Below, one piece after another: positions 3,525-59,043 of a stretch of DNA of 64,000 bases (positions are counted from its first letter, which is position 1; each line of letters begins with the position of its first letter). The notes beneath the pieces were generated by a model that was given only the letters and a program-made list of their open reading frames with translations, was not told the DNA's origin and did not search any database. This DNA is from Chrysophaeum taylorii. Lineage: Eukaryota; Sar; Pelagophyceae; Pelagomonadales; Pelagomonadaceae. Where the stretch lies: the NCBI GenBank assembly GCA_029834535.1, contig JAQMWT010000052.1, positions 59,559-123,558 on the forward strand, written 5' to 3'. The translations under genes were made by a program, and so were the position numbers.

Positions 3525-6500
3525 ATGACGTCGAGCAAGCCGCGATGGTCCCGTCCCTGGAGCGAGGAAGTGACCTGGCAGGCGCAGGCACGCGAAACGG
3601 CCGCGGCGCTCAACGAGGAAGTTTTCCTAACGTGGCTTGACGGAGATGGCGCAGAAAGTGCCAAGCTGTCGTTTAAAATGGTCTGGAGCCGCTCGGCGTT
3701 CGTTGCGAACTGGCTCCTCGGGGACGTCGGTCTCGCGCCGGGTGATCGCGCCATGCTCGTGTACGCTCCGGGTCCCGAGTTCTTCGTCGCCTTTGTCGCG
3801 TGTCTTCGCGCTGGCGTCTTGGCCGTGCCAAATTACCCTCCCGACCCCTCCAGCCTTGGACGTGGCCTCAGGAAGCTGGATCTCGTACGCACCACCTGCG
3901 GCGCCGAGGTGGGCCTCACCGACAGCATCGTGCGCAAGTTGCGCGCGGCGACGAGCATTTGGCACGCGTGGCCCGCGATACGCTGGTACAACACGGACGG
4001 CCAGGGCGCCGACTCGCCTGCACAACTGTTTTTTCATCGGCTGATGAGCTCGGAGCAGCAGCAGCAGCCGGATGACCCGATGCTACGAGTCTCGCGCAGC
4101 TTGAACTCGAAGAAGAAGAACGACCAGGGAGCCGCCGCGCAGTCGTTTGTTTTGCACGACGATGTAGCGCGTCGATCGCTCGCGCGCGTTGACGGTGGGG
4201 ACGGGGACCAACAAGAGAACATCGGCGGCGGCGGCGGCGGCGGCGGACGCCTCGACCAAGCCACGGATGACTCGATCGCCTTTCTTCAATTTACGTCGGG
4301 CTCGACGGGGTGCGCTATCGAGGAGTCGTCAAAAAATCGATTTGACATGCCCCGCAGGGACCCCAAGGGCGTCATGATTTCGCATCGCAACATCTGGCAC
4401 AACGTCAACAATATCTACATCCCTGGCCAGCACAACTTTCTCGGAACCCGCATCGGCGAGGCCGCGGTGAACCGATTGCACGACTTGGCCGAACCGTCCG
4501 AGAGAGTCGTCGCGGTTAGCTGGCTACCCCAGTTTCACGATAGTGGTCTGATGCTCATGTTGCTCGGGCCATTTCTCGCTGGCTAGAACCAGTGTGATAA
4601 GACATACCTCGATTGAAACGACGATAAGTTCCGACGCAGGTTACCACATGGTCAACTTCTCGCCGCTTTCGTTCCTCGCCGACCCCTTGATGTGGCTGCG
4701 CGCCGTCTCCAAGTATCGCGCCATCTGGACGGCCTCGCCAGACTTTGGCTATCGGCTGTGCACGAAGCGCGCCGCCGATACCGATGTCAGCTTCATCGAC
4801 CTCAGCTGCCTGGTGTACTGCGTGGGCGGCGTCGGCCAGCGTTGCGTGCCGTCGCTCCTCCGCGAGTTCGCCGCCTACTTTGCAATCCACGCACGGCTCC
4901 CCGACGACGGCAGTCGTGGCATATTCGTGCCCAACTACGGCCTCGCCGAGCACGTCGTCGCGACATGCGGCGAGAACGACGGCCTCGTCGCGTCCCGTCG
5001 ACGACCCGATCTCATTTCGTGCGGTTCAGACTTTATCGTCGACGTCCGAATCGTCGACGCCGCGAACCGACGACGCATCGTCGCCGACAACACGCCCGGC
5101 GAGCTGTGGTTGAGCTCGGACTCGGTCGCCCAAGGATACTGGGGTAAGCCCGAGCTGAGTGACGAGACCTTTCGCGCGCGACTCGAGCCAGACGACGGCA
5201 AGGTATACCTGAGAACTGGCGACGAGGCCTTCGTGGAGCGGGGCCGCCTCTTCATCTGCGCTCGAATCAAAGACTTGATCATCATTGGCGGCAGAAATTA
5301 CTACAGCGATGACGTCGAAGTGGCTGCGACCGAGGCCATAGTCGACTCGGTGAGACCAGGATGTGTCGCCGCCTTTGCCGTCGTCGACGACGACGACGAC
5401 GACGAGCGTCTGTGCGTCGTGCTCGAAGTTCGAGACAACGCCGAATCGGAATGCGAGGCTCTCGCGTCCGCGCTCGTAACGAGGGTTGGCGAGGCTGTCG
5501 GCCTGCGACCGCGCCGCGTGGTGTTCATCAAACAGAAAACTATTTTGAAGACGACGAGCGGAAAGCTAAGACGCCGAGCGATTCGAGATGCGCTACTCTC
5601 TGGCGAACTCCGCGTTCTCTTTGACTCGAATTCAACCACTTCTGAGGCCCTTGTTGGGGGGCACGACAACGACAACAACACTGCTGCTCGGAACTACGAC
5701 GACTCGGCAGAGGGCGGCTACGTCCAGCGGCTATGGCGGGTGCTCGTCGGCGGCGGCGGAAATTCTAAGGAGTCTCCCTCGACATCACTGAAGGATACTT
5801 CCGTCGAGTTGTTGAAGTGGTCCGAGCGCTTACTCGCGGATGCTCGAGAGCGAAATTTCGAACTTTCTGATTTTCTGGGAGAGTGGGAAGTCCTCGACGA
5901 CCATTACGCGATTCGACGATTTCGCATCGAGACTGAAAATTTAATCGAAGATCGCGAGAACTTATACCGCCAGCATCACCTGGGATGTGGTCGCTACGCG
6001 CACGAGTCTGCCGTCGTCGCAAAAATCAAAATTACGTTGAATGACGTCGAGCTGAGGCCTCGCGGCGATTCAGAAAAAGACGCGGTTGCGCGACTCCCCC
6101 GAGACCTCTACGTCCTCGTGCTCCACGCTACCGGCCTCGTCAAGTTCGTCCCACACTCTGCGAGCTCGCTGCGTCAGCTTGCTTTGCTCGAAAGCCGCGA
6201 CAAACTCGACGCCGAGATGAACTTGAAGCACGCAGAGGATTATGGTTGCTTTCGGTTTGGCATCGTCGTCGGAGACGGTCGGGAACGCAGGTTTCTGCGT
6301 CTTAATCGCTGGGCCACCGACAATCGCTACTTCTGGTCTGCTGTCAATATCACGCGCGACTTTCCCGAGGGAGTCGTCGACGAGCCGCGCGAGCTGATCG
6401 CGGCCGGGCTCGCCGCGCACCCCGGCGTTGACGGAACGAGCCCGTCCGGTGCTCTTCGCGACACGATCTTGGCATTACGAGGCGAAAACGACGACGGTGG

Positions 6501-8038
6501 TCGAACCACCACCACCACCACCACCACCGCGTTGCGACATCGGGCAGCGGCCGCGATTGCGGCGGTACCACGCGTCGATGATTTCCTACTTGCTGAGATA
6601 TCCGGGAGCGAGTCGTCGTCGCCGTCGTCGTCGTCGTCGTTTTCTGGCGGTTTGGCACTCGTCGATCGCGCGGCAAAACAGATCATCGACCTCTTCCCTC
6701 CAAACACATCCCTCAAAGACCACCCCGAATTGCCCCGGGTACTTAAGCAGCTCGCCGTTACAGATGAGCTGATGCGACGTCTTCACTACGACGAGTCTGT
6801 CGCCGACGTCGCGACGTTCGTCGAGGCGGTCAGGTCGAACGTCGTCGAGATGCCCGTGCTCTTGCAGGTTGCGCAAGAGCTCGAGAAACAACGACCCGGC
6901 CGCGGACTGCCCATTTCTGACGAGCGCGCCGCTGCAGACCTGCGAGGCGCCGTCATTTATTGTTTCGCTCTCCACTCGATCGGCATCTCTATGTTGAGCG
7001 CGTCTTCGCCAAAAACAGCCGCCGCTGCCGACTCGGACTTCTTGCTCGATTATTTGAAGGCGCAAAAAGCCGCCATAAATCAAGCGAAGGATGCCGTCGA
7101 CACCTGTTCACCCTTCGAGTATGACTATCTCGCGTGACTGATTCTAAGAAAAAACGTAGGCTCATGAAACACGAGGCCGTGCTATCGTCGGCGCGAAGCA
7201 TCGCAGAGACGAGACGCGACCCGAGTCGGCTCGCTATTGCCCGAGCAGCCGGCGGACCTCTCGCAGAGAATATATTGATGGCTGCTATTGAGGACGTATC
7301 CAAAAACTATGACCGCAACGCTCGCACCAAGGCAGAGTCCGCACGTTCCGTGCTCTTAGTTGAAAATCAACGTCTTTGCGCGAAAATATAGCTGATCATC
7401 GCTGTCTCTCAGGTGCTGGCTTCGAACTCGCCTACTGGAGCTGTGTGCTTCACCAACCGACCGCACGCGTTAAAGTAGCGTCGAGCAGACTCTACCACTC
7501 GGGCATCACAGATTTGGTAGGCTTTGAGGTGTCCCCAGCAATGATGTCTGAGTGGGTCCAAGTGTATCTCGTGTGGAATTTGTCCTTCGGGTTCACGGAG
7601 CCGCGCCCATTTTTGCCTCATGTCGCGAAGCTTTTGGTGCCGTGTTTACTATCTTTGACCAACGAAGACCCGACCTTTTTTTTGTGGATGCGCGTTATGA
7701 CGCTCAACGCGCACGTCAGTTCGCTGGTTTGTCACCCCGAGCTCAGTTTGATTTCTTCGGCGACCTACGACTGGCGATCGACAGACACAAGTACGGTCTT
7801 TGGCGAACTGACCGAGCGTCTCGCTTTTCAACTGTCGAATTCTATTTCGGCAAAACAACTTGTCGATAAGATATCGTCTCGGCGCAAGGAAGAACAAGGC
7901 GATCCGCAGCTTGCGACATGGTTCTCCAAGGCGTGGCATCAAACACTCGAGAGATACCGGCGCAGGACCGATCGAGATGCGCTGTTGGCCGTCAAACTCC
8001 AATCCGCCTTTGATTTTAACGATCCGACGACTACTCCT

Positions 8039-8071
<33 letters not shown>

Positions 8072-10976
8072 GAACGACGACGACGACGCCATCAGCTTCT
8101 CACACTTCCCGAAGCGAAAGACCTCGTCGTGTGCACATTGCGCTCCGTGATGGAATCAAAGGCCGAAAACTTCTCGGTCACGACAAACTTTTTTGACGCG
8201 GGAGTTGACTCGCTCGTGATGTGTAACCTCACGGCGGCACTTGGCGACAAACTCGGCGGCGTAAGGATTCCGCTTAGTGCCGCGTTTGAGAATCCAACGA
8301 TCGAGTCGTTTGCAGAGTTCCTGGTGAAACACGTCTCGTCGTCGTCGTCGTCGTCGTCGACGGGTACGAGCGAGCGAAGCGGAACCCGCGCGGACCAAGA
8401 GGTTGGCGCTGTCGACGGCTCTTCGACGACGACGACCACCCAGCCTAGAGAAGACGTACCTTTCTCGTGGAACCAGCTGCAGTTGCTGACAGAGTGTGCG
8501 TCCATACGAAAAGCCGGGCAACGTGGCTCGGGCGTGTTGGCGTTTGCCGCGTGGGCACGGGGGAGTTTTTCTGTGGTCGCGTTTCGAAGGGCTTTAAACG
8601 CTCTCGTTCGGCGACACGCCGTTCTCCGGACGACGTACGGAATCGACATGGACGACGGCCACTTCACGCAGAGCGAGCACGACCACATGGAAGTTGTTGC
8701 CTTGGTCGAAGCGGTCGCGAAAACAGAAGCGGAGGCGGTTCGGCGGGCAAAAGACGAAGCGCGCGCGCCACTGGATGTCTTGCGAGGCGACCCGGTGCTT
8801 CGCTGTTTGCTCGTGCGCGTCGACCCGGGATCAGAGGACGTCCTTCTCGCCATATTCGTGCACCACGTTGCCTGCGACGGGACGTCGACGCGCGTCGTGG
8901 CCCGCGAGCTTCGCGAGCTTTACGTCGCCGCGACGCACCAACGAGACCACGCCGCCGGCGCCGCCGCCGCGTCAATCGACGACGCGTGCTTACCCAAGGT
9001 CGATCGGACCTACGGCGACTTTGCGCGCCAACAGCACGCAATGCTCGAAAATCATCATCTCGAGGAGCAGAAGCGATACTGGAGCGAGCATCTTTGCGAT
9101 GGAAAGCTCGAAGTTTTGAATCTTCCGGTTGATCATCCTCGGCCGACAAAGCTGACGTACCGCAGCGATCACGTCGAGCTGCGCGTTCCGACTGACCTCG
9201 CATCTGCGCTCGCTCGGCTGGCAGCCGAATGGAACTGCACGCTCTTCCACGTTTTTCTCGCAACTTGGGCGCTTCTATTGGGAAGACACAGCGGGGCCGA
9301 GGAAATTGTGGTGGGAACCCCTTACCAAGGCCGAGAAGACTGCGACAAAAACCTCGTTGGCTATTTAGTCAATATCTTACCTCTTAAAATACACGTCGGC
9401 CGAGGCACGTCCGCGCGGAGCCTCGTCCAGCACGTCCGAAGAGTCGCAATCGACTCTCTTTCGAATGCACAAGTGCCGTTCCAATACGTCGTCGAGAACC
9501 TTCTCCCGAGTCTCGCCCGCGATCCGTCTCGCAACAGCGTTTTTCAGACGCTCCTCGCCTGGGAGCCACGGGACGGGTGGCACGCCACCAACTCGACGAC
9601 GACGACGTCAACGACAACGACAACAAATTGGACCCCCGATTTGAATATGGAGCCGGTTCTGCCTCAGCAGCACAATTCAATGGCAACGTGCGACGTCAAC
9701 TTCACCGGCCATCCCACGAGCGACGGGTGCGTCGAGGGCAGTATCGAGTTTAACGCCGATCTCTTCGAGCGCGAGAGCATCGAGCAACTCGCCAGGCACT
9801 TTCTCGTGCTGGCTGCCGCCCTTCTCAATGACCGCAATGCAGACATCTGGACTCTTTCGATGATTCACGCAGCGGAACGCAACCGCGTCCTACGCGAGTT
9901 CAACGATAATCACGTCGACTTTCGAGTTCGAGACGTCTTCGTTCACGACCTCGTCTGGAATCAGGCTCGTCGTCATCCCTCGGATGGTGCCGTCGAGTGG
10001 CAAGGCTCGCAGATGTCGTATGCCGAGTTTGAGGACGCGGCGTCGACCATCGCCGCCAGGCTGCGAGCTCTCGGCGTGAGATCGGACGTCGTGGTAGGAT
10101 TGCGCCTCGAAAAGTCGCTCGCAATGGCCACGGCAATCCTGGCTGTGCTTTCGGCGGGGGGGGCCTACCTGCCGCTCGATGCGAAAGCCCCGATCGACCG
10201 CCAACGCCTGATGCTCGAGGACGCTCGCTGTTCTCATCTCGTTACGCACGATCTCGACGACGACGACGACGACGACGACGACACTTTTTTGTCAGAATTA
10301 TTGGTTTCAAGCATGATCCAAGTGCGTATTGGCGTCGATGGTCGCATTACCATATCCGATGATTCTGATGATGATTCAGCCTCGACGACGCCCGCTCGGG
10401 AGGAGGTGGTTCGCGATAACAAAGATCTCTGCTACGTAATCTACACCTCTGGTTCCACCGGTCGACCGAAAGGAGTGTTGGTCGAACATCGCGGCGTCGT
10501 GAACTTGATGCACGCATTTCGACCTTTCTTCGAAGCCTTTTTTCCCGAAGCTTTCCGCCGCGAAGACGGCGAACGTCTCGTCGTGCGCTACGCCGTAACC
10601 TCGCACTACGTCTTCGACTTCTTCGCTTTGAACCTCTTCAACTGCCTGACCATCCTTGGAGGCACGTGTGTGCTTCTGCCTAGCGGGCTCTCTCTCCTGG
10701 AGCTTGGAGAAGCCGACAACATCGGCTGCATCGGCGACATCCCGAGCGTCGTCGCGTTAGCCCAAGCGCTGCCGTCCACTGTTCGTGCCATTATTACTGG
10801 CGGCGAAAAGCTAACGAATCGAGTGATTTTGAACTGTCTGCCTCGCCATCTCTTAAACATGTTCGAGACTTCGACTCAGAGTCCGAGCTTTCGTTTTTTT
10901 TTTTCGTCGTCGTCGTCGTCGTTTTGCCTGTCGCGCGCGTCGAGGTTGTTGTTGTTGTTAAGTTTATTCTTTGCCG

Positions 10977-11011
<35 letters not shown>

Positions 11012-12988
11012 CCGCCTCGTGAAGACATGACGTACTAACAGCTTGCTTTCACTCTGAAGGTATGGGCCCACGGAAGCCTCCATAGTGTCCACGTCCACCG
11101 TCGTGACTGTTTCGGACGACGCGACGCTGGCTTCAATCGGCCGACCGCTAGCGAACGTGACGTGCTACGTCGTCGCTCCAGATACGACGGAGCTCCAACC
11201 GATCGGCGTCTTCGGGGAGCTTCTAATAGGAGGAGTCCAGGTTGCACGCGGATACTTGAACCGACCCGATCTGACAAATGCCAAGTTTGTGAAAAACCCT
11301 TGGCCAGAAACCGACCCGTCGGGACGTGGCGTCGCGTATCGCACGGGCGACCGCGTTCGGTGGCGCTCGAACGGCGAGCTCGAGTTTGCCGGCCGTATCG
11401 ATAACCAAGTCAAGCTCCGAGGGCATCGAATTGAGCTCGGAGAGATAGAGGACGCGCTGCGCGCTCACGATTTCGTGAACGAAGCTGTGTGTTTGCTTCG
11501 GGACGACAACAACGTCGAGCCGCAGTTGGTCGCTTACGTCAACCCGCCAATCGCGGATATCGAAGCCTCGATACTTCCGGGCTTGCGGCAAAGGCTCCCC
11601 GCGTACATGGTGCCTTCGATCATTGTCGGAATCGAGGAATGGCCGCGCACTGGAACGAGCAAGATCGATCGAAAGCGGCTGCCCGCGCCGCCGCCGTCGC
11701 GCCGAAAAACGGGCGAACGTCGGCCGCCGAGCACTTTCACGGAGAAGAGAGTCGCGAGAATCGTTGCAGAAACGATCGGGTGTTCGCTAGATGACCTCGA
11801 CGCTGAGACGTCCTTGTTCAAACTGGGAGCGAGCTCGCTGTCTGCAGTGCGAATCAGGGTCATGCTTCAAAAAGAGTTTTCGGGCGTCGAGCTCGACCCG
11901 ATGCTCCTCTTTGACAACGAAAGTATACGCGAGCTGGCTGCGGTGCTTGAGGCAAAGGGCGTGGCTTCCTCCTCCGACGACGACGATAAGAGGTCGTCGG
12001 AAGACCTGACGCTGGACATCACCGAAACCCCCGAGAACGAGGAGGAGTCTGGCGGCGGAAACGAAAAAGAGGGGGACCTCCTCCTCTACTCCTCGGTGTT
12101 GCGCTTCGTGTGCTGGGTTTTCGCTTACTTGTACGTCGCCACCGTCTTCGTCGTGCCCGCGTGGGTGGTCGCATGGCGGCTGAACGTATCACAAGTCGAG
12201 TCGTGGCGCGTCGCGATTCTCGTCCACGCGCCTTTGGCGTGGGCATCGCTGTGCACTTTGCTGAGTCTCGCGGCCGCTGCGACGCGCCTGCTTCTTGCCC
12301 CGGGCGCGATTGTCCCGGTCGTCGCATCGTGCAAGTTCATCGCCTGGTGGACAGTCGAGCGCATCGATCAAATGAATCGTTTTTTGTTTCTCGAAGAGCT
12401 TCGACGGACGCCGTTCCTGCCGATGTACTTTCGCTTGCTGGGAGCACACGTCGGGATCGACGTGATTCTCGATACCGTCAAAATTCACGAGCCGCGATAC
12501 GTTTTTATCGGCGACAATTGCTCTCTTGGACAGCAAGTGGTCGTCTGCCCTCGCGAGTTCGACGCCGCGAGGCACCGGATCATCCTTCGGCCCGTGGTGC
12601 TGGGGGCCTCGTGTCGAGTCGAAGCCCGAGCTGTAATAGGGGCGGGAGCCAAGCTCGGAACAGGCGCGACCGTCGGAGCATTGGCGACTGTTGCGGGAGA
12701 AACGGTCGGCGGGAACAACGCTGACGCGAGGTTGCTCGAACCGACCGCCGTCCGGCCGACCCTCTTTCGGTCCTGGTTCATTTCTCTCGTCGCGCTATAT
12801 GCAACAATTGTTATCATCACCGCTTCCATGTATCCGGCCTTTCTCAGCTTGTCGCTTATCCTGAAGAAAGAGGGACTCTATCCGCCGCCAAACTCAAGTA
12901 TTGCCACCGATGCTCTGCATTCAAACCCCGAGGCGTTCGCGACATTCACTTCGACGTGCAGGCAGTGTCCCCTTAATTAAAAGCCCTG

Positions 12989-13028
<40 letters not shown>

Positions 13029-14654
13029 GACACACCGTCTGCGGCGGCGGCAGGTACCTCGTCTCTCCAATTCTTCCGACTATGAGCATGATTTTCAGCA
13101 ACGCGGACCCGAAACTGCAACGCAAGTTCTTCCTTGAACGGTTTGGCAAAATCGCGCGGCTCATCCCGCTCGTTGCCGGTGTGCTCGTGCAGCACGAGCT
13201 CACGATGCTCGTCGTTGGTGTCGCGTCTTTCTGGATCGCCCACTGCATAAAGAAGACTTGCGCGAGGAGGCAGTGGCGACGCGGGGATTACGAGCTGCCC
13301 GCCGTGAACGCCGATGATCGTCAAGCTGCCCTCGAAGAGGGCATCACCTTCGTCTACGACAAAATAGCCGACAGTATCTATCGCCGAGCGGTCTTTCAGT
13401 TCGGCGCGACGTGGATAATACGACGATACTATATCTGCCTCGGCGCGAAAATTGGTGAGCGAAGAAGAAGACGCGGTCTCTGAATCCTAGCTCTGTGCAG
13501 GCGCGTGGACGCACATCGACTTTCTCCTGGAACGCATCCCCAACCCGCGACAGCTTTGCATCGGGCAGAACGCTCACCTCGGGTCCTTTTGCTGTGTTTT
13601 GCCAGCTCGAATATCGAAGATCACGATCGGCGACAAGAGCATTATCGGGTTTGGCGCCGTCGTTCTTGGAACTACGGACGGCTCGTCGGTGGTGAACATT
13701 CCTTCGACGATGCTCGTTGGCGGCAACACGTTGATTCAAGACGGCCACTCGCAGCTGAGAAAGTCCAGCATGACTATCGACGCCGAGGCGATGACCGAAG
13801 TTGCTCGAGAACTCCAAGTAGTCTCGGCCGAAGGACGCACGATCCGTTCTCGTCAGAACTCGATGACCTTGTCGTGGGACGGCAACCGGGAGCTGATCGA
13901 CTACGACCATGATCTAACGTTTTGCCACAAAGTACTGTACGTCGTCGCGCCGTTCGTCCTCTTACTCTGGGCTCGGCTACTCTTGGCAGTCGCACTCTAC
14001 GCCGCTGCGGCGACCGCGAACTTTACCTTCGAGTGGCTCGCGTATGATGTCCAAAACAATAACGACGACACGAACAGCAATAAACCTCGCTTCAGAAATT
14101 CGAAGCCGTTTCTCGCAATCCGAGCTTTCGCGGCGCTCGTCTTCCTCTTTTCGTTTCTTCTTGGCTTCGCCTGCCTGGCCATCGCCAACAAGTGGTTCTG
14201 GTTTGCCTTGGATGCCAAAGGGCGCAGAACAAAGCGATGGGCGCAATTCGGGGTCGGTTATTGGATGCGGCAGTTTGGAGACGCGGGTCGAGCCGCGTTC
14301 ACCGCGATCGGATTCTTTTTCGTCAGCTCGACCGCGCCGTACGCGTGGTTTGTTCGCGCGCTTGGCGCCCACGTCGAACGCGGCGCCCTCGTCGCCGCGC
14401 CCGTCTACTGGGATGTCGATAACCTGATTATCCAAAAAAACGCGGTGATCGACGAAGATGCCGTCATTTTCTGTCATCGGTACGAGAGCGAGCACGTCAC
14501 CGTCGGCAAAGTTTTGATAGGTACCGGGGCGGTGCTGGAGCCTGGAAGTATAACGACTGTTGGCTGCGAGCTCGCTCCTCGATCGAGGCTGCTTCCAAAC
14601 AAGCTCGGAGTTCTTCCGGTCAAAAAGATGCCGTCCTTCGTTTCGTCGCCGTGA
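3525..14654 (+). CDS. lipopeptide synthase: FAAL-unknown-ACP-C-A-PCP-terminal membrane region
   Basis: Predicted to activate a fatty acid, load it on a carrier and condense it with one amino acid. Proposed exons: 3525-4309, 4358-4581, 4640-7118, 7160-7371, 7413-10860, 11060-12850, 13054-13454, 13501-14654. They sum to 10,494 nt, an exact 3,498 codons. Residues 1-670 are a fatty acyl-AMP ligase (FTSGSTG/DPKGVMISH, WLPQFHDSGL, TSGKLRRRAIRDALL). Residues 700-1460 are unrecognised. A carrier has DAGVDSL (Ser near 1499). A condensation domain has HHVACDG (near 1716). An adenylation domain spans about 2080-2590 (YTSGSTGRPKG, NMYGPTE across an intron, YRTGDRVRW, KIDRKRLP). A second carrier has LGASSL (near 2641). 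From about 2720 come membrane segments alternating with hexapeptide left-handed beta-helix stretches, as in the NRPS terminal domain of epsilon-poly-lysine synthetases. No thioesterase or reductase is seen. The order of domains is read directly; the product is inferred. Intron 6 boundaries are the least certain. Confidence 0.88.
4310..4357 (+). other. intron 1 of the synthase gene (48 bp, readable)
   Basis: GTGCGC donor and CCCGCAG acceptor. Removing it joins the ligase P-loop FTSGSTG directly to DPKGVMISH, as in all family members. Its length is a multiple of three and it has no stop, so unspliced transcripts would carry a 16-residue insert inside the ATP-binding loop. Confidence 0.8.
4582..4639 (+). 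other. intron 2 of the synthase gene (58 bp, GC-AG)
   Basis: Exon 2 ends in GPFLA and exon 3 resumes with GYHMVNFSP, the expected continuous motif of acyl-AMP ligases. The only boundary that restores it uses a GC donor (GCTAGA) and the acceptor GACGCAG. Reading through would hit a stop at 4584. Confidence 0.7.
10861..11059 (+). other. intron 5 of the synthase gene, with TGCC array
   Basis: Donor GTTCGA, acceptor CTCTGAAG. Splicing rebuilds LLNMYGPTE, the adenylation core motif A5. The intron holds a T-rich run, a TCG array and a TGCC tetranucleotide array at about 10,977-11,013. Confidence 0.8.
12851..13053 (+). other. intron 6 of the synthase gene, with CTAT array
   Basis: The acceptor GGCGGCAG before TACCTCGTC is clear and requires a phase-2 donor. 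The GT at 12851 fits and keeps the total length in frame. The intron carries a CTAT tetranucleotide array at about 12,991-13,028. Another phase-2 donor nearby cannot be excluded. Confidence 0.55.
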
Positions 14655-17571: not shown

Positions 17572-18708
17572 TTAGGCGTAGACGGGGATCGGGCGCTCGA
17601 CGACGGGCGCGGGTTCAAATTCCGCGTAATCGTGGAGGGCCTTGAGGCCGTTGCAATAGGAGTCCATCGGGAGAACGGAGAAGGGCTCTTCGATCTGGAT
17701 GCCGAGCTCGTCGATGCCAAACATCAAGGTAGCAATAGCGAGGCTGGCGATCATAATAGGCGCCGGTCCGAGGCCGGTCGAAAGGAGGGCAGAAGGGACG
17801 AAGAGGAGCCAGCCGAACAAGAAGCGGGCCGTGAGGCGCGTATAGACGAGGGGCATGGGGGTCTTCTGGATACGGTCGCACATGCCCCCAAAATCCGAAT
17901 AGAAAGCGATAGTTTCGTCGACGCGAGCCTCCATCTGCGGGGTAAGACCCTCCTCCGCGAGACAGCGGGTAAGGAGACGGCAGACTTCGACGGGGCGGTG
18001 GGGGGCTGCCAGGACCTCGGCAGTCGCTTGCTTGCCAATGAGCGGCGCGAGCTCGGCCTCCAACTTGTCGTCGACCGTCGAGTAGGATCCGATGTGATCC
18101 TTCGGGTTTTGGAGAGTGCCCTTGAGGCAGTGTGCGTTGAGAGCATAGCCAAAGGCGATCGCAAGAGCCGAAAAGCTCCGCGCGCGCGCCGTGTCGCGGA
18201 ACCAGTGCGACTGACGCGTGAGGTCGCGGGTTTTGTTGATCACCGCCCCCCAAATCTTGCGCGCCTCCCACCACCGGTCGTAAGCCTGATTCGTCCGGAA
18301 GGTGATCAACAGCCCAACGGCAGGGGCGGTCAAAGTCAGCGGGAGCGCAGGCATCGCGAGCGTCGCGACTCCCCCGACGTGCAGCCCGACGATCGCGCCC
18401 GCGACCGCCGCGACGAACAGCAACTCGAGCGCCAGCCCGCGTAGCACCCCCGACAACAAACCCGTCCAGATCGCACGGAAGTACCGCTTGGTGCTCCGGT
18501 GCTTGCGCCACTCGTCGGGACCGAACACCGTGCGACGGTACGCGCGCGACGACTCCTTGTAGTTGTCGAAGGCGTCGATCAGCGTCGCCTGGACCGCCGG
18601 CACGCGCGCCGCCGCCTTGCTCCTCGTCGCCGCCCTACCGGCAATCGGCGCCGGGACGCGGAGCCCCGACGCGCCAAGCGCGACCAACACCACCTTGATC
18701 AACATCAT
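17572..18708 (-). CDS. bestrophin-like anion channel, probably plastid-targeted
   Basis: 378 residues, intronless. Family marks are FRTNQAYDRWWEARKIWG near the middle, SDFGGMCDRIQKTPMPLVYT, and GIDELGIQIEEPFSVLPMD near the C-terminus, the signature block of the bacterial/plant bestrophin-like group that includes thylakoid and pyrenoid channels of plants and algae. Four hydrophobic segments are visible: about residues 84-105, 110-130, and two between 285 and 330. The N-terminus starts with a short hydrophobic stretch (MMLIKVVLVALGAS) ending in ASGLRVPAP, followed by a basic, alanine-rich region. That resembles the bipartite signal plus transit peptide of heterokont plastid proteins, although the +1 residue would be Gly-Leu rather than the classic Phe. 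The family conducts chloride or bicarbonate; the substrate here is not determined by sequence. Confidence 0.85.
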   Translation of the reverse strand: MMLIKVVLVALGASGLRVPAPIAGRAATRSKAAARVPAVQATLIDAFDNYKESSRAYRRTVFGPDEWRKHRSTKRYFRAIWTGLLSGVLRGLALELLFVAAVAGAIVGLHVGGVATLAMPALPLTLTAPAVGLLITFRTNQAYDRWWEARKIWGAVINKTRDLTRQSHWFRDTARARSFSALAIAFGYALNAHCLKGTLQNPKDHIGSYSTVDDKLEAELAPLIGKQATAEVLAAPHRPVEVCRLLTRCLAEEGLTPQMEARVDETIAFYSDFGGMCDRIQKTPMPLVYTRLTARFLFGWLLFVPSALLSTGLGPAPIMIASLAIATLMFGIDELGIQIEEPFSVLPMDSYCNGLKALHDYAEFEPAPVVERPIPVYA

Positions 18709-23531: not shown

Positions 23532-24699
23532 CGCGCGCTAAGGATACTTACGAATTCAATCGAAGATACAAACTACCCCCGAATTCTTTCATTAGGCGAT
23601 TCACCTGCCCAAGGAACTAGGATACTTATATCATAACCGAATTATCTCGACAGCCGGCTCCACGTCAGTCCTAACTTCTGACGTCGGTTCACTTTTTTCA
23701 AAATATCCCATCCTCTCTGATAGATTAATAATAACCCGTATTATTACGAGCCGCCGCCGCCGCTGCTCCTTTGAGCTTTTCCACTTTTTTTTTTCCCCCC
23801 CCGCGACGGCCAGGCCCCTGGCATTTTAAAAAGATGTTACTATTCGACAATTATATTACGTCTATTTCGACGAGTTACGCCCTCCCGTGCCATGCGGATG
23901 ACAGACACCCACCCAACATAAGATGTGAACAGTGTTGGTTCGGCTCGCGCCGCGATAGGATGGGTTATTAAGGAGGTTTGGTTTAGGTGCGGGAGTAGTA
24001 TAATATGCACGTCTGGCTTGGTTCGTTCGAGGTGAGTGGTTCTCCGAGAAGGACACTCCCCCCTCGAGGAGAGAGGTGCGAAATTTTCGGGGGGGACCGA
24101 TTATCCGTCCGTGAGCAGAATCAAGGCGTCGAAGACGCTATTCGGCGACGAACATAACTCAAGGCGCGCCTTAAGTACGAGGAAAAGCGCCGCTAATGCC
24201 CGCAAGAGACGACGACAGTTGGGGCCACGCACGACCTCAAAGTCCGCGAGTAGGTGGGACCTTGTCAAATAGCGGGTGTTGGACACGTCACGCTCCAACG
24301 CCCGGGCGACGGTGCGAGCCCGCGGTACCGTGGCTTGGTTGATCACGAGCGCTACGAGGCGAAGGAGATGACCGACCGCCCCAAGGGACAAAGAAAAACG
24401 ACGCGATTCGACGTCGGCAGTCCCTGAAGTAAACATTATCGCAGCGTCCGGTCTCAAATAAAAAATAAGAATGTGTGTCACCGACAGACTGACGGGGTCC
24501 TCTCCTACGACACAAGCAGCAGCACCAGCAGCAGCAAGGGAATAAAGTCCATTTTCCTCTAAGAAAAGGCGGAAGACAAGACTAGGGGTCGTCGGTCGAG
24601 ACCGATCTAACATCACAAAGGTGAGAATAGGCTGACCGATCATGAGTGAGGCGAAGAAAGAAAGAAAGAAAGGAAGAAAGGGAGGGAGGAGAGCATGAA
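23532..24699. other. intergenic, no gene seen
   Basis: Contains a T/C run near 23,790, AT-rich stretches, and an AAAG-rich purine stretch at 24,650-24,690. A - strand open frame at 24,101-24,643 has no recognisable motif and lies just beyond the PI3-kinase 3' end, so it is left out. Confidence 0.4.
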
Positions 24700-27600
24700 T
24701 CAGGCGTGCTTGGGGGCGTGTTTCCTAAAAAAAAAAAGATTGATAAAAAACAACAAAGCACAAACCTGTTGTGGAAGTAGTTGTCGACTCGTCGCCATAT
24801 GTCGCGATGCGCGTTTTTGATGTCTGCGCGGAACTTCTCGGCGGCTTTGGCGGGCGACAGGTCGAGGGCGAGCTGGTCGATCATGTAGGTGATGTCGTCG
24901 GGCTCGAGGAGCTCGGGCATGCCGGCGGGCAGCATGAGGGTGAATAAAACGACAAAGTTAGCCGAGCGATCGCGTAGCGCGTTGTAGGCGTCGCAGCAGA
25001 AGTTCTCAAAGTCGCGGTAGCCGAGCTTGGGGAGGTTGTTGGTGGCGGGCGCGGAGGCTTTGACGATCTGGGCTAAAAGCCTGCGCTGGCGTTCGTAGGG
25101 CTCGGGCGTGACGGACATGACGTTCTTCATGTCGGGCGTGAAGACAAAGGGCGACCTCTCCCGACGGATGCCGAACTTGCTTTTGAAGTTTCCGAGGAAG
25201 TGGCCAAAGTCGATGTGGAAGAGGCGGCCCGTCGTGGTGACCATGATGTTGTCGGCGTGTCTGTCGCCGACTCCGAGGACGTGGGTCGCGACGCAGTAGC
25301 CGCTGCAGCTCGATACGAAGGTGGAGCGGGCGCGCTCGAAACTCCGGACGTCGACGTTGTGGTTTTCGAGATACAACGAGACGACGTTGTCCTTGAAGGC
25401 GCCGCGCGCTCCGCGGCCAAACTGGACCTGGATGTCGGCGGTCGTGGAGGCTTCTCTGACGACTTCGATGACGCCGCAGGCGTCGCCGCTCGCGACGCAG
25501 CGGTAGGGCCACATCTGGAGATCCAGACCCTGGCGGCGCCAGAGGTCGTCCATGAGACGCACGAGCTGGAGGGTGAGCTGGTCCTGGCGGAGGTCGTCGC
25601 CGTGCTTGTATATGATGGGAAAGTCGTCGCCGGCGGGGTCGGCGTTTTTCAATACCACCGAGAGGGGCTGCTTCTTGCTGCTCAAGACCCTGCATTTCGA
25701 GACGTCGATGCCGCGGCACCGGAAGGTAGGGTCGAGGCAGGTGGAAATGCCGGCGGCCGAGGGGTGGTGTTTCGCGGCCGATCCGAAGACGTTCGCGAGG
25801 AAGGATTTCTTGTGGTGGTGGTGGTGGTGGTGTTGTTGTTGTTGTTCGGGGTGTGGCGAGGGCGGCGGCGGTTCCGAGGCGCGGCGTTCGTCCATGTAGC
25901 GGCGGAGATCGCGATCGGCCTGGATCAGGAAGCCGCGGGCCTTGTGGCGCGCCGTCTTGAGGGATTCGGCCTTGAGCTTGCGGGCGACCTCGCCCAAGAC
26001 CGCGTCGACCTTGCACTCGGCCACGAGCTCGTCTCTCAATTCTTGCCCGCAGGCCGAGAGAAAAGCAGCCAGAACGACGCCGTATCTTTCGCAGACGCCG
26101 GGAGCGTGCATTTCTGACCTCAAAAGCCAGAAGAGCCTGTGTCCGAGGACGAAGGGCGAACACGCGCCGCGACGGACCAGAAGGCGGGCGAGGGGCGCGT
26201 CGTGCTCGAGCTCGAGCTTGAGGGCCTGGACGAGCTGGGGGAGGACGTCCAACAAGTGATCGTCGCGCATCTCGTCGAGGCGGCGGCACGCGTAGGCCCT
26301 CAACACGCGGTCGGCGTGGCGGTACCCGAGGAGTTCGAGCGCGACGCGCGCGTGCGTGCTGAGCGCGTCCTTCGGCACCGGCGGGTGACGACGGGCTTTA
26401 TTACTACTACTACTGTTCTGCCCCGGCCAGCCGGGCACGTAGTCGTGACTCGTGGGCGTGCAGGCGGTCGTGCTGCCCGATATGGTCCGGTGGAGCTGCT
26501 GGCGGGGCTTGAAGCGTCGGCGGAGGCTCGCCTCGTCGTCGCGGCGAGCCCACGTCGCCACCAGCGCTCTCGCCTCCTTCAAGGCGTCGAGATCGCCTTT
26601 CGGGACCGCGAGCCACCATGCCGGAAGGAGACCCGGGAAGCGGGATGCGTGTTCGCGCTCGCGCCAGAGGGCGTCCCTGTCCTCCGGCGACGAGGGGGCG
26701 AGCGGCTGGCGCCGAGCGACGCTTTCGACTATCGACCGCATGCTGACGCGTCTTTCGCGCGTTGGTTCGTCGTCGTCGCCGCCGCCGCCGCTTTCCGCGA
26801 ACCGCGGCTCGTCGGGTTCCAGACTAGCTCGGAACTTTGGGGTTTCTGGTGGCGAGGAGGCCTCTTTCTTCGAGACCGCGGCGGTCACCGCGGCCGCGAC
26901 GCGCGCCGAGAGGTCTTCCGAGCGGCGCCGCGGCCGCCGCGGCGAATACGCCGCAGCCTTCGCCGCCAGGATGATCTCTTCCTCGTCGTCTGAGAAGGCG
27001 ATGATATCGGAAGAACTCTGGGACTTGCGGCGGCCGAAAACCAAGGCTCGGGGGTTGTGCTTGTCGGGCGACGACGCCAGCTTGCGTCTCCTCGTGCGAA
27101 AGCGTTCCTTGGCGCTCACCAGAAAGTGCGCGAGTTTCGAGGGCCGCCGTTCGCGAATGTAAGAGTCTTCTTCTTCTTCTTCTTCTTCTTCCCGCGCCGC
27201 CGCCGCCGCAGGACTCCCGTCGAAGGCGACGTCCGGGCTCTCGGCAGACCTGGCCCTGGCGAGCTCGACGGCCGCCGTGAGCTCCGACTGAGTCTCGAAT
27301 CGCATTTCCTCTTCTTCCCCATGACGCGAGGAGGCCATTTCTTCGGAGGATGACTCCTCCGACGAGTCCTCGCCCTCCGGAGGGGGATCGCACTCGAAGA
27401 AGGACCGCGCCCGAACCTTTTTCGAGGGCGCGAGAATAGCTTTCTCGGATACGATCTTCGCCGTAGCCGCGTCGATCGCGTCTTCTAGAGTGGTGTCGTC
27501 GGCCAAAAAAACACCGTCCTCGTTCTCGAAGACGACCGTGAGAGCCCCCGCGTCGTCGAGCGGATTGTCGCCGACCATAGCCCAGTCGTCGCGCCGACCC

Positions 27601-28898
27601 GCGGGCCACAGCTTGAGCTGAAGTTCGCCCGATCGCACCACGCCGCGGTCGAACAACGGCAGAGCAACCGAAGCTAACTCGAGGCGGTCTTCCTTGTTAT
27701 CCGCGAGCGCGAAAACAGTCATAATCAATTTCGCGTCCCGCGGCGCGTACCGCAAGTCGGGACACAGTTCGAGCGAGTCGGGGGGAACCCATTTAGCCAC
27801 GTTGCCCAACGGCTCGGGCCTCGAGCTCTTGCCCGGACCAAAGAAGGCGACCGTCTCGAAGACCTGGAGATGCACCTGGACCCGCACCGACGCCCCCGCA
27901 ACCAGCTTCAAGGCCTCCTTCCCGATCCTAAACCGCCGGATCGCCACTCTCAAAGGCACCGGCTCGGCCGCGATGGATAGCTTTGGCGCGAACCCGAACC
28001 CGGGGTCGTCTTCTTCGTGATATTCTTCCGCCGAAAAAAGGGACGGAAGGCTCGCCCACAACTTTTCTTGCTCCAAACGGTACGCGTCAAGTCGCGGCCC
28101 CCATTTCTTCGTAAACATCGACTCCTCCTCCTCCTCGTCTTGATGATGACGCCGCTGGTGCTGGTGGTGGTGGTAATCTCCCTCGGGAGCTCTCGAAACC
28201 ATCGCCAGCGACCGCGCGTCCTTCTTGGTCAGACTCCTGATCGGCGCCAAGGCCGCCGCCGTTTCCTCGTCGAGCCGCAGCAGCTCCAGCGCGATTTTCG
28301 TCCGCTTCCGCCGCGCGAGCGTGACGTACTCGTAATCCACCAGCCGCCAGTCGCCGTGAAGCAAGTACTGAGCCCTTCCGATCGCCTTAAAGACGTACCT
28401 GTCGTCCGCGGCCGGAAGCGCGCTCCCAAACAAACGCGCGTACTGGTCGGCCGCGGCCTCCACGAGGGCCCGCACCGTGCAGGGCTCGCCGCACCGCACC
28501 GTAATCGAGGTCACGCGTTGCCGGACCAGAGTCCCCAGACTTACGGTGACTTCGAACTCGGTCGTCCGAGGCGTCGGGCTGAACACTTCGTCATCGAACA
28601 CCGCGCGAAAGTCCAGCCGTTCGTGGAACTTGAGCCGCGACGCCTCGTTCTCGATGGCCGCCGCGAGACCCCACCCGGCCCCCCGCATCCACTCCCGCAT
28701 CGACCGCCGCGCCCTCACCGCTTCAACCGACGAGTGCGTCTTCCGCACCGTCTCGGGCGCCAGCTCGAGCCCGCACAGCTCCAAGAAACTCTCGTGCTCC
28801 TTCACCAACAGCCGCCTCTTCGAGGCCCACCGCGGCGTCAAAAACCTTCTCTTCGGCGGCGTCTCGAGAGGCGCAGGCGGCGGCACCTCCTCATCCAT
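24700..28898 (-). CDS. class I phosphatidylinositol 3-kinase catalytic subunit
   Basis: Phosphorylates the 3-position of phosphoinositides at the plasma membrane. 1,385 residues in two exons: 28898-24766 and an 8-codon exon 24724-24700, joined across a 41-bp GT-AG intron (24725-24765). Splicing gives the tail FHNRKHAPKHA. A Ras-binding-like ubiquitin fold lies around residues 105-200, a PI3K C2 domain around 300-435, a long Ser/Glu-rich low-complexity insert around 440-830, a PIK helical domain around 830-985 and the kinase around 1040-1370. Kinase landmarks: IIYKHGDDLRQDQL, catalytic loop GVGDRHADNIM, and activation loop HIDFGHFLGNFKSKFG followed by RRERSPFVFT, the class I pattern. I start at MDEEVPPPAP because the upstream in-frame Met lies in the short spacer shared with the divergent gene at 28979. 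Class assignment rests on the activation loop plus the Ras-binding-like region. No p85-binding domain is evident. Confidence 0.9.
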
Positions 28899-28978
28899 TA
28901 TTCTCTCCCAATAAATAAATAAATATTGCCCACCCACCAGGTTGGGGTTAGTTATCTCGACAGGCGGTGGAAAGAAAG
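28899..28978. promoter_or_regulatory. 80-bp divergent promoter region
   Basis: Separates the ATG of the PI3-kinase (-) from the ATG of the PH-like protein (+). It contains an AATAAATAAATAAAT run near the kinase side. The arrangement implies a shared bidirectional promoter; no specific factor site is identified. Confidence 0.5.
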
Positions 28979-33348: not shown

Positions 33349-36300
33349 CTAGAGCGAGAAGAGGGCGCGGGTCTTTCGTGGTGGCGTCGCGGGGTCCCGA
33401 TAGGGCAGGCGGTCGTAGTCGTAGTCCTCGATCCTCTTGACGATCGCGCGGGCGTGGTTTGCGTAGGGCGAGACGAGGTCGGCGCCGGGTCGAAGGGATG
33501 CGGTAGCGGTGTCGATCTGTGCGCGGAGGGCGAGGGAGACCGTGTCCGGGTCGCAGGCGTCCTCGACCAATAGGCGGGAGGTTTCGTAGAGAAGATCGTA
33601 ATCGGAATTATTATGGCGCCAGCATTTGTCGCAATACCAGGCTTTGGTTCCTCTCGCGACGGCGCCTCGCGAGGTGACCCGGGTCTCGCGGCAGGAGGGC
33701 GTCGCGCAGGCGGGCGCGATCTCTCCCGCCCCGGCCCTCAGCCACTCGGGGAGGTTCGCGCCGGGGTAGAACGACGCCGCGAAGTCACGGAGCGCAGCTT
33801 CTGTCCTCGGAACCGCAGCCTCTAGGGCTTTTTTGCGGCGCGTCGCGCGCGCCCAGAAGAGACGGCGCGCCTCGACGGCGAGGCGGACGAGGGCAGCCGT
33901 CTCGGGGCGGTCGTCGGGCTCGTAGGCGGCGAGGGCCGCGTCGAGTTCGTCGACGTCTGCCGTCGACAGCGCCCTGACTATTGCACACACCGTGTTGCGG
34001 TCCTTGAGGGCGGCCTTGACGCGTTCGAGTTCGGGGGTCGTGCCGGGGCATCTTTCCAAAGCGGGTCCCACCGCGTCCCAGAGACCCCTGGAAACGGCGG
34101 CTCGAACGGCCGCGACGCGACGGCAGAGGAGGGCGAGGGTCGTGGCTCGGGGGGAGGCCGGGTTGCCGCCGGGGAGGGGGGTCTCTAGGGCGTCGGCTGC
34201 TTCCGAGAGACCCTCGACTGGTGCCGCCGGCCAGCCTTGATCCAAGAGGGATTCGGCTTTGCGTCGCGCGGCGCGGTCGCAGGTTTCGTCGACTAATAGC
34301 CGAATTTCCGGGGTGTCCGGAAACCCAATAAAATCTCCGGATATGATAAAGTCCTCGACGGGTTCGATTGGCGCGTCGAACGTAGATTTTCCCGTAGCAC
34401 CGAAACGCGATGCTGCTGCGACCTGGTCCGTCGTCGCGGCCGCGAGGATGTCGGCGACGAGACTCCAATTTCCGGCGCCGCAGGCCGCGCGAAGCTGCGA
34501 AAACAAGGCCGCCTCGCGCGCAAATCTTCGCGCCTCCTCCGTGCCGACGCGCGGCGCCCATTTCGCGGCGTGGGCCGCCGCGGCAAACAGACGCGGGGAC
34601 GCGATGACTTTGAGGTTGCCGACGGTACCCCGGACGCCGCCTTCCTTCAAACCCTCCTGGACGAGCCGAGCGACGAGTCGATTTTGGGCTTCCCTCTCCA
34701 CCAGGAGGAGCTCATCTTTTTTTCTGGCGGCTTTTCCGAGCGCCCGGACGAGAGCGTCGAGGTCGTCGAGGACGATCAACGCGAAGCGAACTTCTCGAAT
34801 TATTTTTGCGGCCGCCTTTAGTTTTCCGTCGAGTCGCCGGTTCGCGAGAGCCGCGTCGAGCAGAGGGAGCGACTCCCTCGCAGCCTCCAAATCCAAACAA
34901 CCCGGTTCTCCGGTGACCCGCATGTCGTCCATCGCCGCCGCGAGATCTGCCGCAGCCTCTCGGGTTTTAGCATTTTCGAACGCGGCGTCGAACTCGCGGA
35001 GAGCGTTCGCGGTCGTCTTATCCGATCCGTCGAGTTTTGGCAAGAGCGTTTGCCTGATTTCGGCGAGCGTCGCGACGCTCGGGTCGTCGTCGTCGTCTTT
35101 TTTCTCGCGTCGCACGGGGGCCAGGGCCTCCGCGCACGCGAGGAGCCGCTTCGCCCGCGGGGACGAGCACGTCGCGGAAGCCACCACCACCGCGTCGTCG
35201 AGGAGGTGGTCTCGCGAGAGGAGAGCGCGCTCGAGCGCCGAAATCGCGCGGTCGTCGAGGCCTTTTGCTCGAAACGCAACGAGTTCGAGAAAAAAAGCGT
35301 CGGGCGGCACGAAGTCCTCCTCCTCATCATCATCATCATCATCATCTCTCGGAGGCACGCCGACGAGGTGGGCGAGGAGATCGAGGCACCTTGGATCTTT
35401 GGCTGCCGCGAGCGCGAACGCTTCGTCGAGGTCCGGCGATAATAATGATAATAGAAGCGTATCGTTGTCGTCGCCGCGCCGCCTCCGGATTTTCGCCGTC
35501 AGCCGTAAACAGGTCGCGAGCCTGCCGTCGGCAGCAGCGGCAGCGGCAGCAGCAGCGTCGTCTAGGGCTTCGAGGTCGCGGGGCGATCCTGCCCCCCCCC
35601 GCAAAAGCGCGAGGCCGCGGCGGCGACGCAGGCCGCTTTTTAGCCTTCGCTCGAGCGGCGCCAACCGACTCTCGAGCGCAGGAATGTTCGCCGCGCACCG
35701 CCGCGGCGCCTCGAGGTGGTCCGCGAGAACGTCCAAGTCAGCCGTAGTTTCCGCCGACTTGAGATGCGCCAGAGCGCCCGCGAGGGTCCGCACTTCCTTC
35801 GGTGGCGCGGAGCACGCCTCGTAAGCCTCCAAGGCGTCGTCGGAAAGCCGAGCGTCGGCGATTGCTGCTTTGAGCTTTTGAAGGACGCGATACCCCCGCG
35901 CCTCGTCCCGCGCCGCGACGAGCTCGCCCACGGGCTCTCCGTCGAGCTCGAGCTCGGCGTCGGAGGGGTCCACGCGCTCGCCGCGCCGCCGGCGTCGCAC
36001 GAGCTCGAGGACGCGCGCGTAGTGCTTCGCGCGAGGCGTGCGGGCCTTTTCCTCCTCCTTCTCGAGGAGGAGGAGGTGGTGGTCAAAAAACTCCTGGTCA
36101 GTTTGTTGGAGCGCGCGGCGTACCGTCGACACCACCGCCTCCTCGTCGGCCGTTCTCGCAAGATCCCGGAGCTCGTCGGCGAGAAACGAGAGCGAGGACG
36201 CGGGTCGAGGCGGGTCGGCCTCGGCGACGCCTTGCGCTTTTCGCGCGGCGTCGACGAGGCGCTTGAGCCGCCCCCAGTCGCGCTCGTCCCTGGCTTCTCT

Positions 36301-40086: not shown

Positions 40087-40256
40087 CAACCCAAGCCTTC
40101 TTTCCTTCCTTCCTTCCTTCCGACGTCTTTTCCTCCTCTTATTGCCACTACTAAAATTTTTCTTCTCTCTCAAACAACTTTGTCCTCATCAATCAACGGC
40201 GGCTTTTTTTTTGCACTCGGTACGAGTGCCTTTTTTTGCAACGAATGTAACAATCA

Positions 40257-57657: not shown

Positions 57658-59043
57658 ATGCCGTGCGGTCCGCGCGTGCGAAAGGCATGGACGGCGTGGT
57701 CGAAGGAAGAGCAGGAGCTGTGGATCGAGGCGGTGAATACGGTGGAAAAGCAGGGCCACTACTGGACGTTCGTGGCGATGCACCTCTACAACGCGGACTT
57801 CACGCACGCGACGTCTTTTTTGTTTTCGTGGCACAGGCTGTACATCTGGGAGTTCGAGAACGTGATTCGCGCCGCGGCCCCCGAGTACGCGTGCCTGACG
57901 CTGCCGTTGTGGGACTGGGCGCTGGCGTCGGAGCTGTACACGAATTATAACGAAACATGGGCGGCTACCGACCAGTTCTTGAGGGATATGGGGGGCGCCG
58001 GGGTGGAGACGGAGCTCGTGCTGCCGCACCCCCAGAACGCCAACGCCGTCCGGGTCGACGAAAAGGTGAAGGAGCGAATGAACGCGTACGGCGGCTACGC
58101 CGAGTGCGACAACAGCACGGTAATGAACGCGGTCGGGAGCATGCCGGCCCCTTTCGACGAATTCCGGGATATCACGCAGCGATGCGACTACGACGTGAAG
58201 ATCGTCGAGTGCAACTGCACCTTCGACGCCCTCACACCAGTCCGCACGCGCGACATGAGAGGCAATTCTGGCATCTACAACGCGTCGAGATTAACAAACG
58301 AAGTCTTAAAATGGCCGCAATTTGTAAGATTTTTCGAGAAGTTTTCGTATCCGCACGCCAAGGTCCACGGGGCAATCTATGGCACGATGGGTTCCCACCG
58401 ATCTCCCGCCGATCCTCTCTTTTGGGGGCACCACGCCTTCGTCGACTTCATCTGGGACCTGTGGATGCACCGGCACGACTGCGGCGGAGTTAAATACGCC
58501 GACGTCCCCCCTGATAAGATCGAGGCCATGTGTCCGCCAAACACAATTTTTAACTGCGTCGTCTGCGGCAACACGGTCGAGGCCGACCGCGAATTTGGCT
58601 CCGAGAGTGGCTCCTACCTCGGACTCTACGACCCTCCCTTTGCCGACGGCATCGACGATCCGATACCCTTCTACGGACTCAAGACATTGTGGTATCACTT
58701 CGATCAGCGCAAACTCCTTACCAAACCCCCGGGTTTCAGCGACCAAACCTGGTACGGCACCTGGACCACCAGGGACGTCTACTCCCTCGAAGCCTGGGGC
58801 GCTTACTCCTACGACTACGGCACGATCTCCTTGGCCAACCCCGATCTGTCGTCTCTTTTTTCCACCCAAACCACCACCAAGACGTTTCGATCTACTATGA
58901 TGGCGCTCTTGTTCTTCTTCGCCATGTTCGCCGCGTACGCCTTGCGCCGCGTCTGCATCGAAGCCATTCGTCGTGACATGGCGAAGAAGAAGGCCGCGCC
59001 CCGCAAGCCGGACGAGCACACGTCCCTACTCCTCGGCTCCTAA
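57658..59043 (+). CDS. membrane-anchored tyrosinase (type 3 copper oxidase)
   Basis: 461 residues, intronless. Copper A ligands: His42 (AMHLYN), His50 (FTHAT) and His59 (SWHRLYIWEFE). Copper B ligands: His233 and His237 (YPHAKVHGAIYG) and His259 (DPLFWGHHAFVDFIWDLW). It starts CGPRVRKAWTAW, matching the usual CxxPRVR beginning of the mature domain. A Cys-rich middle (residues 150-190) and NNST/NCT/NAS sites suggest a lumenal or extracellular protein. Residues about 413-432 (MMALLFFFAMFAAYALRRVC) form a transmembrane segment followed by a basic tail ending DEHTSLLLGS, with an acidic-dileucine signal (EHTSLL) like that of endosomal or melanosomal proteins. Family members oxidise monophenols or catechols. 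No N-terminal signal peptide is present in this frame, so a first exon may be missing. Confidence 0.9.
   Translation: MPCGPRVRKAWTAWSKEEQELWIEAVNTVEKQGHYWTFVAMHLYNADFTHATSFLFSWHRLYIWEFENVIRAAAPEYACLTLPLWDWALASELYTNYNETWAATDQFLRDMGGAGVETELVLPHPQNANAVRVDEKVKERMNAYGGYAECDNSTVMNAVGSMPAPFDEFRDITQRCDYDVKIVECNCTFDALTPVRTRDMRGNSGIYNASRLTNEVLKWPQFVRFFEKFSYPHAKVHGAIYGTMGSHRSPADPLFWGHHAFVDFIWDLWMHRHDCGGVKYADVPPDKIEAMCPPNTIFNCVVCGNTVEADREFGSESGSYLGLYDPPFADGIDDPIPFYGLKTLWYHFDQRKLLTKPPGFSDQTWYGTWTTRDVYSLEAWGAYSYDYGTISLANPDLSSLFSTQTTTKTFRSTMMALLFFFAMFAAYALRRVCIEAIRRDMAKKKAAPRKPDEHTSLLLGS

Follow-up and report, generated by a model that had tools for sequence, protein, structure and literature searches.

Enzymes of the Pls/PosA family (epsilon-poly-L-lysine and delta-poly-L-ornithine synthetases; NCBIfam model TIGR02353) carry, behind their carrier domain, three pairs of transmembrane (TM) helices that alternate with left-handed beta helices, giving six TM helices that surround three beta helices (PMC10522769, accessible part). 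No structure was available when that paper appeared, and the way in which this end forms bonds was an open question. Known members have an adenylation-thiolation-Pls (A-T-Pls) order and no condensation (C) domain. The bacterial lipopeptide synthetases that begin with a fatty acyl-AMP ligase (FAAL; PvdL-type and others) form a second described group, ordered as FAAL, acyl carrier protein (ACP), C domain, adenylation (A) domain and peptidyl carrier protein (PCP). Here we describe a gene related to both, found in a 64,000-nucleotide stretch of DNA (hereafter the window) from the pelagophyte Chrysophaeum taylorii (GCA_029834535.1, contig JAQMWT010000052.1, positions 59,559 to 123,558, forward strand). 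The window gene has FAAL, a region that we call x, ACP and C ahead of A-PCP-Pls; it shares the FAAL-ACP-C-A-PCP order with the PvdL-type synthetases but, unlike them, has x between FAAL and ACP and no thioesterase.

PosA homologues have been reported in fungi, Metazoa, Alveolata and Amoebozoa (PMC10522769, accessible part), so that eukaryotic Pls-type ends as such are not new; the domain company of this one is. Among the papers listed by literature searches, no title or abstract described a FAAL joined to a Pls-type end, and none of the papers searched names TIGR02353. The C. taylorii genome paper (Davison et al. 2023; PMC10366177) counts nine nonribosomal peptide synthetase (NRPS) and 13 polyketide synthase (PKS) genes and names N-terminal adenylation-like domains and a 'left-handed beta helix' for some of the PKS; in the accessible part of its text neither the architecture of the NRPS genes, nor a connection with Pls, nor a FAAL-x-ACP-Pls family is described. 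The algal NRPS of Aureococcus and Bigelowiella are likewise rare multi-domain eukaryotic enzymes, but, unlike the window gene, they have three C domains among 10 domains, with no membrane end mentioned in the accessible part of PMC4661987.

Domain order and the Pls-type end

The gene reads from an ATG at 3525 to a stop codon ending at 14654, in eight exons and seven introns (Table 1), and encodes an open protein of 3,537 residues with no internal stop. A sequence-only reading of this DNA had proposed the same span, start, stop and single spliced gene, all of which stand; its 3,497 codons do not, our model being 40 longer through a different choice of introns. For introns 6 and 7, many alternative splice sites also leave the frame open, and comparison by eye with a near duplicate on another contig, C315, favours 12956 for intron 6 (C-numbers are contigs of the same assembly; the window gene is C52). 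Junctions in C315 lie, by eye, at the same places, and some introns differ in length; the 26-nt intron 3 (7134-7159) is unusually short, and its counterpart in C315 is longer.

Exon-by-exon searches of Pfam and NCBIfam agree with the order FAAL-x-ACP-C-A-PCP that had been claimed from the letters; behind it stand three repeats of a TM pair and a beta helix. The Pfam matches were AMP-binding (split over exons 1-3), PP-binding, Condensation, AMP-binding with AMP-binding_C, PP-binding and Hexapep. NCBIfam fatty-acyl-AMP ligase models matched exons 1-3 (PRK05850 in exon 3, 7.9e-52), all under their whole-protein cut-offs; matches of the C-terminal half of the FAAL in the PDB include FadD23, FadD32, FadD28 and 3pbk, and PRK05691, a mark of likeness to PvdL-type synthetases, matched exons 1, 3, 5 and 6. 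The core motifs of the sequence-only reading (HHxxxDG, SGSTG and both carrier serines) are all present in the spliced protein (FTSGSTGDPKG at residue 256, GVDSL at 1502, HHVACDG at 1722, YTSGSTGRPKG at 2249 and GASSL at 2644), and the gene thus has the C (HHxxxDG), A and PCP domains of an NRPS, each with intact motifs. For the x region, Pfam gave no match even at E 10, and the best PDB hits (E 0.61 and 1.3) were not significant. At E 0.001, none of the eight exons matched a thioesterase or reductase domain in Pfam.

The best NCBIfam hit of the spliced C-terminus was TIGR02353 (E 5e-23; 81.2 bits vs. a curated cut-off of 423.1), which exon by exon matched exons 6 and 8. An alignment (hhalign) of two profiles, the first built from five algal C-termini and the second from nine bacterial Pls C-termini, gave E 4.3e-25 over 575 columns and three repeats, vs. 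0.43 for the reversed algal profile, and additional alignments, shifted against the first, revealed an internal repeat. A crude hydropathy scan counted exactly six segments in three of the five algal C-termini, seven in that of the window gene and six in the incomplete one of C315, as compared with four to seven in the nine bacterial C-termini; the number of hexad runs was only mildly above chance (reached by 12 of 500 shuffles). As judged by sequence, the C-terminus is thus genuinely, though distantly, related to the Pls/PosA end and falls outside the curated family. The poly-lysine-synthetase-type membrane end that had been predicted for this gene accordingly does have its match in the NRPS terminal family.

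C315 has the same domain layout and matches the window gene along its whole length, at 79-97% identity by aligned piece. Over 3,460 aligned codons, none of them a stop in C315, synonymous divergence (dS) was 0.17 and nonsynonymous divergence (dN) 0.061 (dN/dS 0.37; Nei-Gojobori, a point estimate given without a significance test). Exon 1 was looser (0.84) and all other exons ranged from 0.11 to 0.56, with 0.46, 0.56 and 0.28 in exons 6, 7 and 8, which encode the terminal region. The intact motifs and the open, constrained copy agree with the earlier suggestion that the window gene is functional, which it probably is.

A family of Pls-type ends in the genome

We searched the genome (70.8 Mb in 697 contigs; 84 matches to light-harvesting proteins) with profiles for x (72 matches), the C-terminal half of the FAAL (81), PP-binding (82), Condensation (9), ketosynthase (KS; 45) and TIGR02353 (at least 75 matches with an E limit of 10; scores cover 64 of the 94 candidates from a first look), keeping a genome-wide AMP-binding search out of the counts (14 of 152 candidates scored). 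When matches were clustered by strand with gaps of up to 3.3 kb, 51 clusters held Pls or x, 45 of them Pls and 21 both. FAAL was present in 34 of the 45 Pls clusters (upstream of Pls in 33; on C488 the joined FAAL lies after the Pls match), FAAL and x together in 20, and a C domain in five, and these tallies for FAAL, FAAL with x, and C changed little at gaps of 2.5 kb (33/19/5) or 4.5 kb (33/18/5). At the same setting TIGR02353 gave matches in all 14 control genomes, one of them over the cut-off, and weak matches may be ordinary hexapeptide enzymes; the linkage to FAAL is therefore what supports 33 of the 45 clusters.

FAAL and x were 973-1,276 nt apart in 18 of the 20 FAAL-x-Pls clusters (316 nt on C370 and 1,552 nt in one on C133), and from the end of x to the Pls match there were 697-1,236 nt in 15 of them, 4,044-4,397 nt in three one-module loci, 7,240 nt in the two-module locus and 2,572 nt in the last. 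Since 0.7-1.2 kb leaves no room for C-A-PCP, 15 of these 20 loci lack the space for an amino-acid module. An ACP was detected at eight of 16 module-free loci, always 504-661 nt ahead of the Pls match. FAAL and Pls matches lay in frames of equal length on C488 (4,042 aa), C451 (3,113), C349 (2,090) and C45 (1,115), and one 4,052-aa frame on C24 holds AMP-binding, ACP, KS and Pls, all of which supports fusions. From sequence, a FAAL-x-(ACP)-Pls unit without amino-acid activation is common in this genome, and because of the spacing and the fusion frames we regard C-A-PCP as a cassette ahead of Pls, apparently an addition at five loci: the window gene, C315, C390, C370 and C529.

C529 carries two modules (248572-262815, minus strand; FAAL-x-ACP-C-A-PCP-C-A-PCP-Pls, mostly in one 2,948-aa frame). 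Two further loci resemble tandem-FAAL genes with a Pls-type end: C488:13696-25620, with four consecutive FAAL matches and Pls-type matches in a single frame length of 4,042 aa, and C451:10856-19252, with two FAAL matches and Pls at 3,113 aa. KS and Pls were joined in two clusters at the 3.3-kb gap and in five at 4.5 kb; KS-bearing stretches with a downstream Pls-type match lie at C24:62549-72688, C5:13227-24918, C10:112614-119732, C297:112639-119759 and C390:52474-59380, and are perhaps the PKS whose left-handed beta helix was named in PMC10366177.

Outside the alga, Pls was found in three of 40 NRPS-bearing genomes (from the 80 best NRPS relatives), in at least 25 of 396 genomes from the phylum of a Nocardia genome and in at least two of 386 from that of an Acaryochloris genome (up to two candidates per genome scored in the latter two surveys), giving 29 distinct genomes with one shared by two sets. 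Bacterial Pls frames reached 1,565 aa among the matches listed, and a few of 393-946 aa held Pls alone; these lengths are thus enough for A-T-Pls and too short for the architecture of the window gene. A recent bacterial donor of C-A-PCP was sought; the best 80 loci among the matches listed were 29-34% identical to the C529 module and came from many phyla. Viral contigs, searched with single proteins for close relatives, held none of part of the Pls-type end, the FAAL half or an x piece, and exon 8 had no match among plasmids.

Predicted product and competing explanations

Reading the A domains at what we take to be the anchor positions of the pocket code gave DFLGIGMIVK for the window gene, DLLCLAAILK for C315, DGHHEGTITK for C370 and DGKSTSVIDK and DFQSVGVIIK for the two modules of C529 (all by script), and DFLGLGMIAK for C390 (by eye). 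Even the window gene and C315 have different codes, so that the substrates may have diverged. Threonine was tried as the substrate of the window gene and set aside: six of ten positions are shared with its code, which we take to be DFWNIGMVHK, too weak a likeness to name a substrate.

From the domain order, motifs, constraint, relationship to Pls and family spacing read in the sequence, we infer the substrates, the transfer reaction, a part for x, the location and the acceptor, and propose that the window gene encodes a membrane-anchored lipo-amino-acid synthetase in which the Pls-type end delivers an N-acyl amino acid to an acceptor at a membrane, a reading to which we give a probability of about 0.5. 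In the known families, a FAAL loads an ACP, a C domain joins acyl and aminoacyl thioesters, and the Pls end makes amide bonds out of a thioester attached to a carrier. The FAAL would thus make a fatty acyl-AMP and load the acyl chain onto the ACP, the A domain would load one, probably neutral, amino acid onto the PCP, and the C domain would join the two into an N-acyl-aminoacyl-S-PCP. The three-repeat end, at the position of a thioesterase, would then hand the carrier-bound chain over to a diffusible nucleophile at a membrane, which might be an amine, an alcohol or a lipid head group; in module-free members of the family the same end would have to act on carrier-bound acyl chains without an amino acid. 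An N-acyl amino acid was one of the two product classes put forward in the sequence-only reading, and it is the one that our results support.

Several observations weigh against this proposal. The TIGR02353 score lies far under its cut-off, and the terminal region might be only an anchor. Structure prediction gave unusable models for exon 8 alone (predicted local distance difference test score 45.2) and x1 alone (36.1). At the level of the family, C390 has no x match, three of the five C-bearing genes (C52, C315 and C529) showed an ACP ahead of C, and the PP-binding search left the ACP undetected at eight of 16 module-free loci. Moreover, the family was counted from exon matches and not from gene models, and some loci form near-identical pairs (C10/C297, two on C24, C351, C330) that may represent alleles or copies made by the assembly.

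The best surviving alternative, in our view unlikely, is that the terminal region serves as a membrane anchor only, with release by an external esterase or by hydrolysis. Its remoteness from Pls would fit (81 bits with TIGR02353; ~21% identity in the first profile alignment, in which two of nine bacterial rows are from the wrong strand), but all three repeats align with Pls, hexapeptide models match, and exons 6-8 look constrained. More doubtful still is release of an N-acyl amino acid or short lipopeptide as a free acid by a thioesterase-like end: the end does occupy the thioesterase position, yet the hexapeptide models that match it describe acetyl- or acyltransferases and not hydrolases.

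The other product class of the sequence-only reading, an acyl-capped homopolymer in which the end repeatedly adds one amino acid onto an N-acylated first residue as in epsilon-poly-lysine synthetase, has in its favour the homology of the end to that of polymerising Pls/PosA enzymes and the single amino-acid A domain of the window gene, but finds little room in our results and seems improbable. The known enzymes join side-chain amines, and in PosA a glutamate at the third code position binds the side-chain amine of the diamino acid (PMC10522769, accessible part); the window gene has leucine at this place, and glutamate occurs there in none of the six A domains of the five C-bearing genes (L in C315 and C390, K and Q in C529 and H in C370). 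In PDB comparisons the second A domain of C529 reached 252 bits against GrsA (1amu) but 147 against epsilon-poly-L-lysine synthase (7wew) and is, by sequence, nearer to ordinary NRPS A domains, and a dimodular enzyme with two different codes would not yield a homopolymer. Finally, 15 of the 20 FAAL-x-Pls loci offer no space for activating an amino acid, which makes the polymerisation of amino acids an unlikely common role for this end. An assembly chimaera or pseudogene, to which the non-canonical GC-AG intron and the 26-nt intron might point, is very hard to reconcile with a C315 copy of the same layout, with introns at the same places, some of other lengths, and a dN/dS of 0.37, or with dozens of family members in the genome.

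Table 1. Features of the window gene (window coordinates; aa, amino acids; nt, nucleotides).
Feature	Position	Strand	Evidence
Whole spliced gene, 8 exons, 3,537 aa	3525..14654	+	Splice model, C315 comparison
Fatty acyl-AMP ligase domain, aa 20-665, exons 1-3	3582..5625	+	Pfam AMP-binding, NCBIfam PRK05850, PDB FAAL/FadD
Intron 1, GT-AG, 48 nt, separates SGSTG from DPKG	4310..4357	+	Same place in C315 (by eye)
Intron 2, GC-AG, 58 nt	4582..4639	+	GC donor also in C315 (by eye)
x1, aa 715-945	5773..6465	+	No Pfam match to E 10; best PDB E 0.61
x2, aa 1004-1441	6640..8020	+	Matches in 27 genome clusters, the window gene's own included
Intron 3, GT-AG, 26 nt	7134..7159	+	Same place in C315, longer there
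Intron 4, GT-AG, 41 nt	7372..7412	+	Splice model
Acyl carrier protein, Ser in GVDSL	8126..8326	+	Pfam PP-binding E 4e-11
Condensation domain, HHVACDG at 8861-8881	8465..9847	+	Pfam Condensation E 1e-59; nearest PDB chains Txo1, Txo2
Adenylation domain, pocket code read DFLGIGMIVK	9911..11696	+	Pfam, NCBIfam, code reading
Intron 5, GT-AG, 199 nt, upstream of YGPTE	10861..11059	+	Splice model, C315
Peptidyl carrier protein, Ser in GASSL	11739..11939	+	Pfam PP-binding E 3.5e-15
Pls-type terminal region: three repeats, TM pair and left-handed beta helix	12069..14651	+	TIGR02353, hhalign
Intron 6, GT-AG, contains tetranucleotide repeat	12956..13053	+	Splice model, C315
Intron 7, GT-AG, 46 nt	13455..13500	+	Splice model

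Neighbouring genes and meaning for the family

Elsewhere in the window, the minus strand holds a bestrophin frame (17575-18708), a phosphoinositide 3-kinase in a single frame with kinase, PIK and RBD matches and a weak C2 match (24585-28937), and a 2,274-codon open frame at 33352-40173 that has no Pfam match, lies in a stretch of up to 70% GC and may not be a gene. Frames for a tyrosinase (57658-59040) and a class IV aminotransferase (59887-62559) lie on the plus strand, the latter overlapped on the opposite strand by a FAST-kinase-like frame (59782-61371).

The Pls-type end has so far been tied to the polymerisation of cationic amino acids. The size of the gene family in this genome and its architecture suggest that the membrane part has a general role in moving acyl chains and is not confined to making polymers. 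We tentatively propose, at odds a little short of even, that the three-repeat Pls end is a general membrane acyltransferase for carrier-bound chains and not a polymerase as such, and that it has been multiplied in one alga to ~45 loci, most with a FAAL ahead and 20 with FAAL and x, that would produce fatty-acyl conjugates of a class not yet known, with amino-acid modules added at five loci and ketosynthases at others. As the end stands both after FAAL and ACP without a module and after a FAAL-NRPS, its bond formation is directly testable with one acyl-ACP. C. taylorii is a bloom-forming, mucilage-making alga with natural products that lack known genes (PMC10366177, accessible part), and if our proposal is true, a large enzyme set for acyl conjugates would be opened in this species.

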